IMG/VR virus record: IMGVR_UViG_3300001848_000808
Coordinates: 1-23,472 of that record
Direction: 5' to 3' (one strand)
Length of the DNA: 23,472 nucleotides
Origin: a virus
The notes below the pieces were generated by a model. It was not told where the DNA came from and searched no databases. It saw only the letters and a program-made list of their open reading frames with translations. The translations under genes and the position numbers were made by a program. Position 1 is the stretch's first letter; each line of letters opens with the position of its first letter. Of this stretch, positions 72 to 20,668 are shown piece after piece.

Positions 72-87
72 AGGAGAAAGAACTTTG
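72..87 (+). promoter_or_regulatory. Ribosome binding site and TTG start of the helicase gene
   Basis: AGGAG at 72-76 lies 8 bases before the TTG at 85-87. No ATG is available until position 130, which would remove residues that look like part of the conserved N-terminal helical domain. A second TTG at 88 is equally well placed, so the start is uncertain by one codon. Bases 1-71 hold no gene I can support. Confidence 0.65.
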
Positions 88-1500
88 TTGCAAAATTACG
101 GAACTGACGTACAGAAGCTATTTCTAGAAATGATCATGGAAGACGCGCAGAGCTATGTGCGCGTCCAGAATATCTTTAATCCTGAGAATTTTGATCGCAG
201 TCTCAAAGCAGCGGCACAGTTCATACGAGAACACTGTGATAAACATCAAACCCTGCCGGATCGAACACAGATATCAGCCACTACGGGCGTAAAACTAGAA
301 CCCATACCCGATCTTAATACAGGACATTTTGATTGGTTCATGGCCGAGTTTGAAGGCTTTACTCGCAGACGCGAACTGGAACGCGCCATTCTCAAAAGCG
401 CAGATCTCTTGGAGAAGGGCGAATATGATCCTGTAGAGAAGCTGATCCGCGATGCTGTACAGATCAGCCTCACACATGACATGGGCACTGACTATTTTTC
501 TGATCCGCGTTCGCGTCTCATGGCACTCAAGAACAGCAATGGCCAGAACAGTACCGGTTGGCCGGCACTGGATCGTTTGTTGTATGGCGGATTCAATCGC
601 GGCGAACTGCAAATCTTTGCGGGTGGGTCTGGCTCAGGAAAAAGTCTGTTCATGCAGAATCTTGCGGTCAACTGGATCGAAGCCGGGCTCAGCGGAGTTT
701 ATATCACGCTGGAGTTGGGCGAAGGCTTGTGCGCCATGCGTATGGATGGCATGGTGACCAACACCGCACAGAAAGAGATCTTTAGAGATCTTGACACTGT
801 GGAAATGAAAATCAAGATGGTGGGCAAAAAAGCCGGACAGTTCCGTATCAAATACATGCCCGCACAGAGCACTGTGAACGACATACGCGCCTACCTCAAA
901 GAGCTACATGTACAGACCGGATTACAGGCTGATTTCATATGTGTAGATTATCTGGATCTCTTGATGCCTGTGAGTGCCAAGGTTTCACCTAATGATCTCT
1001 TTGTAAAAGACAAGTATGTGAGTGAGGAGTTGCGAAACTTGGCCAAGGAACTGAACATACTATTTGTCACAGCAAGTCAGTTGAATCGATCGGCTGTGGA
1101 AGAAATTGAATTTGACCACAGCCATATTTCGGGTGGTATCTCCAAGATCAATACAGCAGACAACGTGTTTGGTATCTTTACATCTAGAGCCATGCGTGAG
1201 CGCGGACGTTACCAATTGCAACTCATGAAAACTCGTAGTAGCTCGGGCGTGGGTCAAAAGGTAGAGCTAGAGTTTGATCTCAATTGTCTGCGTATCCGGG
1301 ATCTTGGTGAAGAACAATCATCTACAGCCGGGACTACTCCAGCTAGTTCAATCATGAATCGCATCAAGGCCAACGCAGCCTCTGCTGGCTCCCGTGTTGA
1401 CACTTCCACCGGTGAAATTTTAGAGGATACACCTCGAGTCTCGGCCGAGGTGCAAAGCAACAAGCTCAAGCAATTACTAGCTCAAATCAAACAGTCATGA
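85..1500 (+). CDS. 41: Replicative DNA helicase, T4 gp41 / DnaB type
   Basis: Replicative hexameric helicase that unwinds DNA 5'-3' ahead of the phage fork. The N-terminal 130 residues are helical, as in the gp41/DnaB N domain. The RecA-like core starts near residue 157 (STGWPALDRLLYGGF). Walker A is GGSGSGKS at 180-187 with K186. The segment YITLELGE (about 207-214) holds the likely catalytic glutamate, and Walker B is FICVDYLD with D288. The segment SSSGVGQKVELEFD near residue 390 fits the C-terminal DnaB core. The length of 471 residues matches gp41 (about 475). It starts at TTG behind AGGAG. Its stop overlaps by six bases the stop of the convergent minus-strand gene. In T4 the primase gene 61 follows gene 41; here a structural gene on the other strand follows, so the replication cluster is rearranged. 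Family assignment is secure; the start codon is less so. Confidence 0.95.
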   Translation: MLQNYGTDVQKLFLEMIMEDAQSYVRVQNIFNPENFDRSLKAAAQFIREHCDKHQTLPDRTQISATTGVKLEPIPDLNTGHFDWFMAEFEGFTRRRELERAILKSADLLEKGEYDPVEKLIRDAVQISLTHDMGTDYFSDPRSRLMALKNSNGQNSTGWPALDRLLYGGFNRGELQIFAGGSGSGKSLFMQNLAVNWIEAGLSGVYITLELGEGLCAMRMDGMVTNTAQKEIFRDLDTVEMKIKMVGKKAGQFRIKYMPAQSTVNDIRAYLKELHVQTGLQADFICVDYLDLLMPVSAKVSPNDLFVKDKYVSEELRNLAKELNILFVTASQLNRSAVEEIEFDHSHISGGISKINTADNVFGIFTSRAMRERGRYQLQLMKTRSSSGVGQKVELEFDLNCLRIRDLGEEQSSTAGTTPASSIMNRIKANAASAGSRVDTSTGEILEDTPRVSAEVQSNKLKQLLAQIKQS

Positions 1501-2412
1501 CGTAGTGGCTTTGACAATCGCGAAGTTAAAAACTGGTTGTTCGGTAGTGGTTCCGCCAGTGGTAGCATAGCTGATACGGAAACTACCAGTGGCCACTGAA
1601 GTAACATGTATGCGATAGAGATCAGTTCCAGATCGTTGATTAACGATTACAGTATCAGTACTGGCTACCTGATTATTGGTCACAGTAAATGATTGCCAGG
1701 AAGTACTACCAGCTGCGGAAACCAATGTGATAGAACCGCAAGCAGCATTGATGGTAACACCGGTGGTGCGATTGGTGGCTTGAGTAACAGAGGCACCAGC
1801 ACCGACACCATAGCCCACGGCAGCCTGGTTACTACCCAATAGAGGTCTATTGAGATCAAAGAGGGTGATATTGGTACCACCATTTGTGGTATAGAATTGG
1901 AACTGATAGGTTCCGGTGGCAGCAAATGTGATCACATTGCTACTCAAACCCTGCACACCTATAACACCCAGATTGACCGCTGCGGGCAACGTTACAGTAT
2001 AGGCAATATTGGTAATAACCAGTGTTAGATTTATATAACCTGCGCTACCAGCAGCAGGCCAATTGGTAAAGGCCAGACTCACGCTGCCCGTGGGGGTAAG
2101 ACTTTGGAATTGCCCTGCACTGTAGTCTATAGTAACCGATCCTGCGGTAGCTGCAATAGGTATCTGTGTCCAACTCACATCCTGCAATTTCACAGCGGAA
2201 ATCAAGTTATCGCTCATGTTATTGTTGAGCGTGGTGCCGGTTAGCGCAGATTTGAAAACACCCACGCTCTGTAGTTCGGTTATTTCGTCAGCGGCGTACT
2301 GGAAATTGGTCTTGGTGTTGGTAAAATTGTCACGCATGCCCTGTGTATTGTTGGGCACTCCGGCTACGGGGTAATTACCGTCGATATTGTTGGGGTTTAT
2401 CTGGCTAGTCAT
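1495..2412 (-). CDS. Tail-fibre-like virion structural protein
   Basis: This 305-residue protein begins with a segment (INPNNIDGNYPVAGVPNNTQ, then a stretch ending in NFQYAADEITELQ) that I recognise from the N-termini of tail-fibre or other structural proteins in marine T4-like phages. The remainder is rich in Thr, Ser, Gly, Asn and Val with alternating hydrophobics, typical of beta-structured fibre or receptor-binding proteins. No enzyme motif is visible. It is the only minus-strand gene in the window. It has a GAGGA ribosome site just before its ATG and a perfect T4 late promoter TATAAATA at 2434-2441, so late expression is likely. It overlaps the helicase stop by six bases. The structural role is inferred from the N-terminal family resemblance and the late promoter; position in the virion is unknown. 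Confidence 0.7.
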   Translation of the reverse strand: MTSQINPNNIDGNYPVAGVPNNTQGMRDNFTNTKTNFQYAADEITELQSVGVFKSALTGTTLNNNMSDNLISAVKLQDVSWTQIPIAATAGSVTIDYSAGQFQSLTPTGSVSLAFTNWPAAGSAGYINLTLVITNIAYTVTLPAAVNLGVIGVQGLSSNVITFAATGTYQFQFYTTNGGTNITLFDLNRPLLGSNQAAVGYGVGAGASVTQATNRTTGVTINAACGSITLVSAAGSTSWQSFTVTNNQVASTDTVIVNQRSGTDLYRIHVTSVATGSFRISYATTGGTTTEQPVFNFAIVKATTS

Positions 2413-2479: not shown

Positions 2480-2728
2480 ATGCAAAAACAAACACGCAGT
2501 ATTCTAGAAGAACTGGACGGTTTTTACATCGAGCGAGATCGACGTTTGGTTATTGAAAGTAGAGCCAATCATCTCATAACCAGCGCCATACGCCTAATAG
2601 AAATGATCGAGTCTGAATATTCTGCAGAACAAGCGGAAAATCTCACTCGAAAACTGCTCAATGCTATACGTAACAAGGACATAGGAAAATTCGCTCGATC
2701 AGTACGGAGAACCCATGAAGATACATGA
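2480..2728 (+). CDS. Small helical phage protein, function unknown
   Basis: An 82-residue, highly charged and almost certainly all-helical protein. It has no cysteines, no membrane segment and no motif I can assign. The central part (RRLVIESRANHLITSAIRLIEMIES) followed by SAEQAENLTRKLLNAIRNKD looks like two amphipathic helices, and small proteins of this style occur in other marine T4-like phages. AAAGG at 2468-2472 is a modest ribosome site. Its last 14 bases overlap the next gene in another frame, so the two are probably co-translated. Being first in the 2480-5386 unit, it may act with the putative capsid-packaged protein behind it; that is inference. Confidence 0.75.
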   Translation: MQKQTRSILEELDGFYIERDRRLVIESRANHLITSAIRLIEMIESEYSAEQAENLTRKLLNAIRNKDIGKFARSVRRTHEDT

Positions 2729-3443
2729 AATAACGCTGACCGAAGCTGCACCCGGTAGTTTCACGGCACAACTTGGTGTTTTGGGTCGTAATCTTGGCCA
2801 ACAGATAACCAAAAGTGTATTGGGATTTGACCCAGCCTCGGTCAGTAAAAACCAACAATCGGGGGACATGTCGACAGCATTAAAAGCCACCAGTGATAAA
2901 TTAGCTCAAACTGTTTCTAACACCTGGCCATCTGTAGTATCGCAAGTCATGGCCAATTCAATGGATCCCATATCTAGATCTCGGGGAGTAACGGATTTTG
3001 CAAAGATTGATAAAGCATTATTGGAGCAAGAATTGGCCAAGCAAGTCAATCGCTTGATATCCAGCCTCAGTCGTAATAGATATACCACCATAGAACAGTT
3101 GAATGATTTCCCCACTGCTTCAACAAATGTTGACAAGCAGAGAGCAATTGACGATGCCAAAAGAAAAATACAATTGGGCATGGGTTATATAAAAAGAACA
3201 GCACCTAGTCGTGCTACAACACCAACTTTGTTACAATCATGGAAGGCCATTATTAATGCTGTTCTTACCATGGTTCAAGCACCCACCGAAACTGATCCCG
3301 AAGAAGCAAAATTACGCAGAGCTGTGATAGCCAAAGATGCTAGCGGTAGAATCACAGTTGACGGGCGAGTACTAGATCCTAGACAAACAGGTGATGCTCG
3401 AACATTGTCCAGTATACAAAATTTAGGACTCATGCCACCATGA
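2715..3443 (+). CDS. Putative internal capsid protein with capsid-targeting N-terminus
   Basis: 242 residues, soluble and mostly helical, without a known catalytic motif. The N-terminus MKIHEITLTEA lines up without gaps with the capsid-targeting sequence of T4 internal proteins as I remember it for IPIII (MKTYQEFIAEA): Met-Lys at 1-2, Leu/Ile at 8, Glu at 10 and Ala at 11. T4 prohead protease gp21 cuts after Glu in L/I-x-E sites, so LTE at residues 8-10 would be a cleavage site. This suggests the protein is packaged in the prohead and processed, and possibly injected with the DNA. The rest is not recognised. It overlaps its upstream neighbour by 14 bases and shares an ATGA with the gene behind it. 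The targeting call rests on a short motif and is a hypothesis; the gene itself is secure. Confidence 0.7.
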   Translation: MKIHEITLTEAAPGSFTAQLGVLGRNLGQQITKSVLGFDPASVSKNQQSGDMSTALKATSDKLAQTVSNTWPSVVSQVMANSMDPISRSRGVTDFAKIDKALLEQELAKQVNRLISSLSRNRYTTIEQLNDFPTASTNVDKQRAIDDAKRKIQLGMGYIKRTAPSRATTPTLLQSWKAIINAVLTMVQAPTETDPEEAKLRRAVIAKDASGRITVDGRVLDPRQTGDARTLSSIQNLGLMPP

Positions 3444-5386
3444 TATTAAGCGAAGGCGGAAACATATTTAAAACAGCCGAGGGAGACGCACTCACTCAGC
3501 GTATTGCTCGAGCTGATATACCTAAAACCGTGGCCTGGCTAGAAAAAGTCACAGGTCTAGATTTCACTCAGGACAAAGGATCTGATGGTGTACCGGCCCG
3601 TTGGTTGGGCAGCACTGGACGAAAAGACTCTAGCGGTGATTTGGATCTGCAGGTTGATGCCAACCAAGTGACCAAGCCACAACTGATATCAGCTCTAGAA
3701 GTCTGGTGCAAAAAGTCCGGTATACCCAACGCTGATATCATGAATCAGGGCCGGAAGAAGAATGATGGTTGGATCAAAGATGCCGGGGTACAAGTGCATT
3801 TTCGTACACCCATAAGTGGTGATCCGCGTCGCGGATTTGTACAAACCGATTTTATGTTTGCCCATAAACCACAATGGCATCAGTTTATTCTGAGCGGTAA
3901 TACTCTGCGCAACATCTTGATCAATAGCATGGCCAAGAGTCTAGGTTGGAAGCTGAATCAGCATGATGGTATCTACACCCGTGAGGACAACAAGTTTGTG
4001 ACCGATGATCCAGACCGCATGGCCAAACTGCTGCTCAATCCCAATGCCAGCCGGCAGGATCTTGCATCGGTGGAAACCATTCTACGAGCTCTCAAAATGG
4101 ATCCACGACGCGAGGAAAAGATCGCAGACTTCCGCGCACACATGCAGCGTGAGGGCTTGCCTTTTGATGAAACACTGGAAGAAACTGATGTAAACTTCTT
4201 GGCTCGCCTGCGAGATCGTATCGTGAATCAGGGCATGCAATCCCTGGTGGAAACCATTGAGGTGGCTGAAGCAGCGCCTGGCACTCAACCCGTGGGTGGA
4301 CGAGCCAAGGGTATTGAACACCTTGAAGATTTGATTTTTCGCCAGGGTACCCGGGGTGCAAAAACGGCTCTGGAGATTGTGGACCATGTGAGTCGAGACA
4401 GTCGCATGGCCACAGTGAAATGGGATGGTAAACCCGCTGTAATTTTTGGTCGTAAACCCGATACCGGTGAGTTTGTACTCACCGATGGTTCGGGATTTGA
4501 AGCCCGAACCTATGATGGCCTGTTTACCAGCATCGGTAGCGTCGAGCAAGATCTAGCACGACGTGATGCCAACGCAAAAGAGCGAGGGAATCTTGCCAAT
4601 CGAATCCAGACTCTTCTACCTGTGTATGAAAAATTATGGCCCATGTTGGAACAGTCTTTGCCCACTAATTTCCGTGGATATGTCAAGGGTGATTTGCTGT
4701 ACATAAACACCCCGCCATTGCAGGCCGGCAATTATGTGTTTCAACCCAATACAGTGGAATATCGTATTCCTGCCAAGTCATCCCTGGGACAACGTATCGG
4801 CGAGAGCACTGTGGGCATCGCCATGCACAGCATGTATGCCGATCAAGGTGAGCCTAGCCAACCACTACGCCGTGTAAAATTCAATGCCGTGCCTGGTCTG
4901 TTGTTGATGGAACCTATTTCGGCCAAGCCCATTACGCTCAATCAAGACCTGATCAAAGAGATACGTGGTATAGTCAAGACCAAGGGTCGTGACATAGATA
5001 CCCTATTCAACCCGCAAGAATTACGTGCTCAGCAGATCACAGATCTTGCCAAATTGTGTATAGATTTTATCAACTATAAAATTGGATCGGGAAATTTTGA
5101 TAACCTATTACCAGAATTTGGACAATGGTTACAAACACGAGTAACTCCTCGTAAATTTGACAACATCATTGAATATCTGCGTAGCCCTGCCAGCAACACA
5201 CAGGGCATGGCCGCGGCGTTTACGCTATTCTTGCTATTGCATGACCTAAAAATGGATCTACAGCGCCAACTGGATCTGCAAGTGCCTGGTAATGAGGGTT
5301 GGGTATTTGCTACTCCTGTGGGGTATGCCAAGGCTGTAAATCGATTCGATTTTACACCAAAGAATCGGGCCCGTAATAACCCATAA
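3440..5386 (+). CDS. Two-domain nucleotidyltransferase: Pol-beta-type plus ligase-type (DUF6267-like)
   Basis: 648 residues. The first half carries a polymerase-beta-type nucleotidyltransferase signature: LGSTGRKDSSGDLDLQVD at 56-73 gives the Gly-Ser helix and the Asp-x-Asp pair D67/D69, and the third carboxylate is probably D137 in FVQTDFMF. The second half has VKWDGKPAVIFGR at 326-338, which resembles motif I (KxDG, K327) of ATP-dependent ligases and capping enzymes. GYVKGDLLY (413-421) could be a motif III equivalent. I recall KWDG-containing proteins annotated DUF6267 in marine T4-like phages. Between the domains, about 266-282, is a linker with LVE and VAEAAPGT, the latter like the prohead-protease-type site of the upstream neighbour. 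Substrate is unknown; an RNA ligase, an adenylyltransferase or a tRNA-modifying enzyme are all possible. The start is fixed by ATGA coupling with the upstream gene. Confidence 0.75.
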   Translation: MILSEGGNIFKTAEGDALTQRIARADIPKTVAWLEKVTGLDFTQDKGSDGVPARWLGSTGRKDSSGDLDLQVDANQVTKPQLISALEVWCKKSGIPNADIMNQGRKKNDGWIKDAGVQVHFRTPISGDPRRGFVQTDFMFAHKPQWHQFILSGNTLRNILINSMAKSLGWKLNQHDGIYTREDNKFVTDDPDRMAKLLLNPNASRQDLASVETILRALKMDPRREEKIADFRAHMQREGLPFDETLEETDVNFLARLRDRIVNQGMQSLVETIEVAEAAPGTQPVGGRAKGIEHLEDLIFRQGTRGAKTALEIVDHVSRDSRMATVKWDGKPAVIFGRKPDTGEFVLTDGSGFEARTYDGLFTSIGSVEQDLARRDANAKERGNLANRIQTLLPVYEKLWPMLEQSLPTNFRGYVKGDLLYINTPPLQAGNYVFQPNTVEYRIPAKSSLGQRIGESTVGIAMHSMYADQGEPSQPLRRVKFNAVPGLLLMEPISAKPITLNQDLIKEIRGIVKTKGRDIDTLFNPQELRAQQITDLAKLCIDFINYKIGSGNFDNLLPEFGQWLQTRVTPRKFDNIIEYLRSPASNTQGMAAAFTLFLLLHDLKMDLQRQLDLQVPGNEGWVFATPVGYAKAVNRFDFTPKNRARNNP

Positions 5387-19330: not shown

Positions 19331-20668
19331 ATGAAATCAACTCTCGGCATTATTACCGAAATCGCAGCAACCGCCAGCACCAAAGCCAAAGAAGCAATTA
19401 TCCGGCGAGAAGAAAAGAATCCTGCGCTGCGAGCCACATTCGCTGCCGCATATGATCCCACCGTTTCCTACTATGTCAAGAAAATCCCCGCATACCTGAC
19501 TAAGGGTTCGGGCGAACTGTTGGAAGCGATCAAGAGCCTGGACCAGTTGGCAAAACGTCAGCTGACTGGGCAAGCGGGCATTGACCATCTGCAAAGCGTC
19601 CTGGAATCAGTCAGCGCAGATGATGCAAAAGTTATCGAGCGTATTATTGATCGCGACTTGAAGTGCGGTGCAAGCGATACGCTGGCTTCACGTGTTTGGA
19701 AAAAGCTGGTTCCGGAATTCCCCTACATGCGTTGTTCGCTGCTCAAGGCAGTCAAAGTTGAAAAATGGAATTGGCAGCAGGGTGTTATTAGCCAGCTCAA
19801 GGGTGATGGCAGTTTTGCCAACAGCGATATCGTTGATGGCGAAGCTGTGGTTTCCAGCCGCGCTGGCAAACAATATCCCGCCGGCGCACTGAAAAACATC
19901 ACTGACGAACTGGTTGCTGTATTTCCCGATGATGTGCGTGTTATTGGCGAACTGCTGGTTGAACGTGATGGCAAAGTTCTGCCGCGTGAAATTGGCAATG
20001 GAATCCTGAACTCGGTTGCCAAGGGTGGCGAGTTTGATGCAGGTGATCGTCCTGTTTACATGGTGTGGGACATTATCCCGCTGGAGTTGGCTGTGGCCGA
20101 TGGTCGCTGCAAAACGCCCTATACCGAACGCTTGGCCTCCCTTACTGCAATCCTCAATAAAGCCAAAACTAAGTCTGTTTCGCTTATTGAAACGCGCATC
20201 GTGCATAGCATGAAGGAAGCCTATGCTCACTATTTTGAACTGGTGAAAAAAGGGTTTGAAGGCACGATCATCAAAGAACCCCAGGGTGTGTGGGCCGATG
20301 GCACTAGCAAAGAACAAGTCAAACTCAAAGTTGAGTTTGAAGTAGATCTGGAGATCACTGGGTTCAATGCTGGCAACGGCAAAAATGCTGCTACCTTTGG
20401 TTCGATCGAATGCAAAACATCCGACAAGAAATTGGCTGTAAATGTGTCCGGCTTTACTGACAGTGAGCGTCTGCGCATTCACAAGATCCGCAAACAATTG
20501 CTTGGTACGATTATGACAGTCAAAGCCAATAGCATTATGCCCCCGGCGGGTAGTGGTGTGTATAGCCTGTTCCTCCCGCGCTTTGCGGAGTTCAGGGACG
20601 ACAAACGTGTTGCTGACAGCCTGGCTCGTGTGCAAGAACAATTTGATGCAGTGATCAAAGTAAAGTAA
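19331..20668 (+). CDS. 30: ATP-dependent DNA ligase, T4 gp30 type
   Basis: Seals nicks in replicating and repaired phage DNA. The N-terminal part (EIAATASTKAKEAIIRREEK, then VSYYVKKIP) lines up with T4 gp30. Motif I is QLKGDGSF with K157. Motif III is IGELLV (E207), then YMVWDIIP. Motif IV is FEGTIIKEP (E310, K315), motif V is VKLKVEFEVDLEI (K331, K333), and the OB domain fills 340-445. All catalytic residues are present; 445 residues is slightly shorter than T4 (487). The residue two after KxDG is Phe where many ligases have Arg. Codon use differs from the neighbours: I find no ATA for Ile, and an open antisense frame exactly in register shows no TTA, CTA or TCA over codons 120-437. This suggests transfer. 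It has its own promoter and a TAATG link to the next gene. Confidence 0.95.
   Translation: MKSTLGIITEIAATASTKAKEAIIRREEKNPALRATFAAAYDPTVSYYVKKIPAYLTKGSGELLEAIKSLDQLAKRQLTGQAGIDHLQSVLESVSADDAKVIERIIDRDLKCGASDTLASRVWKKLVPEFPYMRCSLLKAVKVEKWNWQQGVISQLKGDGSFANSDIVDGEAVVSSRAGKQYPAGALKNITDELVAVFPDDVRVIGELLVERDGKVLPREIGNGILNSVAKGGEFDAGDRPVYMVWDIIPLELAVADGRCKTPYTERLASLTAILNKAKTKSVSLIETRIVHSMKEAYAHYFELVKKGFEGTIIKEPQGVWADGTSKEQVKLKVEFEVDLEITGFNAGNGKNAATFGSIECKTSDKKLAVNVSGFTDSERLRIHKIRKQLLGTIMTVKANSIMPPAGSGVYSLFLPRFAEFRDDKRVADSLARVQEQFDAVIKVK

Follow-up and report, generated by a model that had tools for sequence, protein, structure and literature searches.

A phage protein that joins a PolX-like domain to a DUF6267 ligase-like domain: a candidate fill-and-seal enzyme

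Introduction

Why would a phage place two different nucleotidyltransferase signatures in a single polypeptide chain? The question is raised by IMG/VR virus record IMGVR_UViG_3300001848_000808, of which we analysed positions 1 to 23,472 (the window, 23,472 nucleotides), a virus contig with genes for ribonucleotide reductase, a helicase of the gp41/DnaB type and a DNA ligase of the T4 type. An earlier note on this DNA had pointed to an open reading frame (ORF) at 3440-5386 on the plus strand and had suggested for it, as one example, a nucleotide-adding domain followed by a sealing domain. The frame and all the residues that it quoted are correct. The gene encodes 648 amino acids from the ATG at 3440, and its product fuses a PolX-like nucleotidyltransferase domain to a DUF6267 ligase-like domain; at the level of predicted folds, the reading of two nucleotidyl-transfer activities is supported. 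Based on structural models, motif conservation and gene context, we propose with moderate confidence that the protein is a two-site fill-and-seal enzyme, whose substrate would more likely be RNA, for example tRNA cut during infection, than DNA.

Domain organization and conservation of the catalytic positions

The PolX-like domain comprises residues 1-240 (3440-4159, plus strand, as are all features of this gene) and the DUF6267 domain residues 291-648 (4310-5383). Between them lies a linker, residues 246-290 (4175-4309), that is predicted to be disordered: its predicted local distance difference test score (pLDDT) is under 50 in a whole-protein model that reaches 78 overall and about 90 in the N-terminal domain. 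DUF6267 (PF19782) is the sole Pfam match of the protein, covering residues 292-642 with an E value of 6e-27, so that the label 'DUF6267-like' given earlier to the protein holds for this part; it does not extend to residues 1-290, for which every Pfam family stays under its cut-off.

The N-terminal domain contains the stretches L56-G57-S58-T-G and S65-G66-D67-L-D69-L, which hold a GS motif and the first two metal-binding aspartates (G57-S58 to D67-L-D69, 3608-3646), and the stretch Q135-T-D137-F with the third carboxylate, D137 (3848-3850). The C-terminal domain carries T325-V-K327-W-D-G with motif I, K327-W-D-G (4418-4429), and its proposed adenylated lysine; a motif III-like strand, G413-Y-V-K-G-D418-L-L (4676-4699); motif IV, E619-G-W-V (5294-5305); and motif V, K631-A-V-N-R (5330-5344), which reads KLVDR in most relatives. 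A helical insert, residues 502-614 (4943-5281), separates motifs IIIa and IV in the secondary structure of both models.

Could such motifs arise by chance? When the protein was shuffled 20,000 times, 3 of the products contained both of two regular expressions, one Pol-beta-like and one KxDG-like. Among 1,043 ORFs from the fetched loci that lack these domains and are 200 amino acids or longer, 1 had both. Because the KxDG-like pattern alone turns up in 1,474 of the 20,000 shuffles, conservation is a stronger test than the presence of a motif. We aligned 139 distinct fused proteins, drawn from 194 ORFs with both domains among 304 loci. G57, G60, S65, G66, D67 and D69 are identical in all 137 covering rows, Q135 and D137 in all 138, and K327, W328 and D329 in all 139. 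The only exceptions at catalytic positions are S58 (serine in 131 rows, threonine in 6) and V622 (methionine in one). Across a separate alignment of 63 diverse DUF6267 sequences, K327, D329, G330 and D418 are each kept in 63 of 63 rows, and E619, G620, V622, K631 and the motif V arginine in all 62 that cover them. At fold level the checks that the note had suggested turned out favourably: the models described below resemble Pol beta/lambda in the first half and RNA/DNA ligases in the second.

The N-terminal domain is PolX-like

In Foldseek the whole-protein model matched Pol lambda, Pol beta and Thermus PolX, with 8 matches at E values up to 0.001. DNA polymerase beta was matched at E 4.5e-4 by Foldseek and at Z 9.6 by VIA (root mean square deviation (rmsd) 3.9, 167 residues aligned), and Pol beta or Pol lambda account for 50 of the 50 VIA matches listed. 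D67 and D69 lie on predicted strand 67-73 and D137 on predicted strand 133-141. The model therefore presents the features of the Pol-beta nucleotidyltransferase superfamily, a GS motif, DxD and a third aspartate on a palm fold, as well as the palm and thumb of family X DNA polymerases. Sequence profiles are less responsive: the Pol beta thumb profile PF14791 aligns with residues 152-187 under its cut-off (E 0.11, 12.8 of 25 bits), and the palm profile PF14792 matches none of 8 fused-phage records at E values up to 10. Ahead of the palm there is no space for an N-terminal 8-kDa lyase domain. We call the domain PolX-like and do not name it PolX. RlaP was considered and dropped as a family, since PF10127 matches nothing in the window and none of the 8 fused-phage records.

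One region sets the window protein apart from its relatives. At residues 152-157 (SGNTLR) it has 6 residues where 137 of the 139 rows have 12-14, and it lacks an S-x-Y/F-K/R-G stretch that is present in 128 of 139. In Pol beta this region makes contact with the template. An assembly slip is unlikely, because an identical protein (100%) is encoded on two further contigs (L002 and L003).

The DUF6267 domain resembles covalent ligases

Modelled alone from the 63 diverse sequences, the DUF6267 domain reached a pLDDT of 93 and a predicted template modelling score (pTM) of 0.88. Covalent RNA or DNA ligases make up 50 of the 50 VIA matches listed for this model. Naegleria RNA ligase heads them with Z 8.3-8.8 (at best Z 8.8, rmsd 3.9, 183 residues aligned), followed by T4 Rnl1 (7.2), T4 Rnl2 and human DNA ligase I (both 7.1), and the trypanosome editing ligase and fungal tRNA ligase (both 7.0); T4 DNA ligase is also among them. 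In Foldseek, too, the top 29 rows all belong to covalent nucleotidyltransferases, with an archaeal DNA ligase in first place. In domain-model numbering, strand 39-42 ends with K327, strand 128-136 contains D418 and strand 171-181 contains H463; E619 comes just ahead of strand 335-340, and K631 falls within 343-347. This predicted placement is like that in ligases. The domain thus combines, on a modelled adenylation fold, a motif I lysine with motifs III, IV (EGxV) and V in the order of the lysyl-AMP ligase superfamily.

Which kind of ligase might this be? Only 18-26 residues follow the motif V lysine, and therefore there is no oligonucleotide/oligosaccharide-binding (OB) domain as found in DNA ligases and capping enzymes; we dropped DNA ligase membership, as past motif V no OB domain with motif VI was found. 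This architecture is shared with T4 Rnl1, T4 Rnl2 and Naegleria RNA ligase, which have the lysyl-AMP ligase fold, motifs I, III, IV and V and no OB domain past motif V. Of 128 fused proteins, 115 have motifs IV and V 12 residues apart and the other 13 have them 8 apart, compared with a spacing of 13 in an Rnl1 relative (counted by eye). Entry titles for the Naegleria enzyme name mutants of K170, D172, E227, E312 and K326, which we take to be motif residues; DUF6267 has the same order of residue types, but with Asp for Glu in motif III. The phage domain differs from these RNA ligases in its polymerase-like fusion, in the helical insert, the stretch from motif IIIa to motif IV varying from 38 to 197 residues across aligned relatives (A5), and in falling under the cut-offs of RNA ligase families. 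The T4 Rnl1 family PF09511 matches 1 of 63 DUF6267 members (E 0.017, short of the cut-off) and not the window protein. RNA_ligase PF09414 does not match the window protein at E values up to 1 and is absent from the families listed for the 63 members, 25 out of 41. A single-sequence search of solved structures with the window protein gave nothing useful. Profile-profile comparison with small profiles of Rnl1, Rnl2-like, DNA ligase and Atu_ph07/Phosso ligases and six decoys separated nothing, and counts neither way because Rnl1 against Rnl2-like, which served as positive control, was not separated either. On the modelled fold and the invariant motifs, we read DUF6267 as a probable ligase family.

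Gene neighbourhood and split pairs

The fused gene lies in a conserved setting. We counted synteny in 126 loci with more than 2.5 kb upstream, on contigs that were not de-duplicated. An 82-amino-acid neighbour (phrog_11854; 2480-2728, plus strand) has a relative upstream in 125 of them, a 242-amino-acid gene of unknown function (2715-3443, plus strand) in 55, and a DnaB/gp41-type replicative helicase (85-1500, plus strand; phrog_19, E 1.9e-67) lies at most 3.5 kb upstream in 61; a single locus has none of the three. In the window the 242-residue gene overlaps the 82-residue gene with its start and the fused gene with its stop. A phrog_18251 gene of unknown function (1495-2412, minus strand) lies between the helicase and the 82-residue gene, opposite in direction to its neighbours.

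In Atu_ph07 and Phosso the N-terminal domain has a separate relative. The order there is helicase, 82-residue gene, gene of about 240 residues, RNA-ligase-like gene and PolX-like gene, the end of the RNA-ligase-like gene overlapping the PolX-like gene; the two activities are therefore neighbours also where they are not fused. The RNA-ligase-like genes carry KLDGS and EGVV motifs, and the Atu_ph07 protein matches PF09414 at E 0.002, under the cut-off. A sequence-based link between these ligases and DUF6267 was not found; by eye, their motif V region FKVVDKDHF resembles LKLVDRLEF of DUF6267. At another place in its genome, Atu_ph07 also has a distinct match to RlaP.

Distribution of the family and its other partners

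Scans of viral contigs for relatives returned 43; when an alignment served as query the number rose to at least 589; the DUF6267 family as a whole is found in 330 phage records and at least 598 viral contigs. No relative appeared in GTDB genomes with either the fused or the N-domain alignment, nor in plasmids with the N-domain search. Besides the fused ORFs, the 304 loci hold 94 ORFs with DUF6267 only and 9 with the N-terminal domain only, the latter in Atu_ph07 (one gene, three loci), Phosso (two genes), Lak-B5, immuto, 30-3 and one contig-end fragment. In the Prevotella phage Lak-B5 (L305) an RlaP open frame is apparently broken, as judged by eye, by an intein-like insert.

Marine phages have DUF6267 either on its own or joined to an enzyme that resembles cytidylyltransferases. 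The cyanophage proteins, such as P-TIM40 gene 182 (E 6e-130), belong to the same Pfam family and keep the same invariant motif residues, but lack the PolX-like domain. The 591-amino-acid protein of S-PM2, named cytidyltransferase-like, matches the DUF6267 model. Beside DUF6267 in P-TIM40, gene 181 (L126:4154-4933) contains a stretch of the ExK type which, judged by eye, resembles a nuclease; its sole match is phrog_26930, of unknown function. Gene 182 of Flavobacterium phage immuto (L128:4911-7634, 907 amino acids) starts with a second region of Pol-beta-like type (PF18765, E 0.022, under the cut-off). After it come a stretch resembling cytidylyltransferases (E 0.032) and one of the HExxH type. 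The gene adjoins the PolX-like gene 181, so that both partner types stand side by side.

Discussion

How might the two domains work together? We infer catalysis, cofactor, order of steps and substrate as follows. D67, D69 and D137 would hold two metal ions, and the PolX-like domain would extend a 3'-OH by one or a few nucleotides. The DUF6267 domain would act as the core of an ATP-dependent polynucleotide ligase that is adenylated on K327; the AMP would then move to a 5'-phosphate, and the ends would be joined with the help of D418, E619 and K631. The flexible linker would allow both domains to act on one substrate. By judgement we lean towards RNA, which we hold to be perhaps twice as probable a substrate as DNA, because the best structural match of the ligase half is an RNA ligase, no OB domain follows motif V and a separate DNA ligase is encoded in the window, and also because Atu_ph07 has an RNA-ligase-like partner and RlaP sets a precedent. 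RlaP, a member of the Pol-beta superfamily, is predicted to put back missing nucleotides ahead of sealing by an RNA ligase (PMC7824862), the same restore-then-seal logic as proposed here. RlaP and phage RNA ligases are described as cooperating proteins (PMC7824862), whereas here a single chain, outside the PF10127 family, would do both. By analogy with RlaP, a link of the fused protein to host defence is a conjecture.

Several observations weigh against this proposal. The Foldseek matches of the DUF6267 model are weak (E 0.010 or worse, TM-scores near 0.2), and its best VIA Z barely exceeds the level that the tool calls common. Profile searches of solved structures retrieved no ligase with the DUF6267 alignment and no polymerase with two N-domain alignments. 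The neighbours are replication genes, which fit DNA as well as RNA, and no tRNA gene lies within the window. Finally, a pure fill-and-seal role leaves unexplained why a cytidylyltransferase-like gene (PF01467) lies near 61 of 80 DUF6267-only loci.

Could the substrate be DNA? The enzyme would then be a counterpart of PgVPolX that fills short gaps in phage DNA with deoxynucleoside triphosphates and seals the nicks, in base excision repair or end joining. This alternative is unlikely in our judgement, yet it has substance. The N-terminal half folds like PolX DNA polymerases, DNA ligases are among the matches of the other half, an archaeal one heading the Foldseek list, and a replicative helicase is nearby. 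PgVPolX of Phaeocystis globosa virus, a giant virus, shows such fusions to be workable: its authors demonstrated that it polymerises, ligates and acts as a lyase, with a Pol-beta-type core N-terminal to a ligase in one viral protein (PMC5537341). It has 1,093 amino acids and an NAD+-dependent DNA ligase (PMC5537341), as against 648 amino acids and an RNA-ligase-like core without an OB domain here. No NAD+-dependent DNA ligase domain is found in the window protein, DUF6267 being its only Pfam match; moreover the phage protein leaves no room for the 8-kDa domain and its host is bacterial. By the features tested, the fused protein is neither PgVPolX nor RlaP. Against DNA also stand the missing OB and lyase domains, the Z of Naegleria RNA ligase, more than one unit above that of the best DNA ligase, and the DNA ligase that the phage already possesses (19331-20668).

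A further reading, which we rate as quite improbable, is that the domains do not act on the same ends: DUF6267 would use a protein or a small molecule as the acceptor of AMP, or take part in nicotinamide adenine dinucleotide or nicotinamide mononucleotide chemistry, and its partner would supply or modify that molecule. The pairing with PF01467 genes speaks for it, as does PHROG family 455, which matches both DUF6267 and cytidylyltransferase-like proteins; phage enzymes of this kind have been discussed as homologues of NMNAT (PMC10665884). The remaining 19 of the 80 DUF6267-only loci, often with short flanks, show no cytidylyltransferase match. Against it, none of 199 fused-lineage loci, many with short flanks, has such a gene nearby, the lineage carrying a polymerase-like partner instead, and the best structural matches are polynucleotide ligases. 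Mere coincidence of motifs, with one or both domains inactive or not nucleotidyltransferases, is very hard to credit: the frequency of KxDG in shuffles and the unsupportive profile searches would allow it, but the catalytic positions are invariant, both halves match by fold and the further ligase motifs follow in the correct order.

What are the implications of a fill-and-seal enzyme for these phages? In Pseudomonas phage PA5oct a PolX-like relative (L319:2893-3606) and several of its neighbours are annotated as structural proteins by electrospray ionization tandem mass spectrometry (ESI-MS/MS). Because of this annotation the enzyme may be packaged, injected and active in the first minutes of infection. 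DUF6267 of S-CREM2 (58890-59777) is missing from the virion proteome table of that phage, which speaks against packaging of that half. We speculate, with little expectation attached, that an end-processing system of phages is centred on DUF6267 ligases, with swappable PolX-like and cytidylyltransferase-like partners, perhaps packaged, injected and early-acting, in which the swap may mark an undescribed end chemistry.

The name DUF6267 was absent from the literature searched, where most subscription journals are not covered, and on phage PolX-ligase or RNA ligase-nucleotidyltransferase fusions only the works cited here and unrelated ones were found, which is no proof of absence. A function is now proposed for DUF6267. 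The candidate fusion of polymerase and ligase would be a bacteriophage one that joins PgVPolX, with a type of ligase unlike that of the giant virus, and single-chain fill-and-seal enzymes of this kind may be useful as tools.
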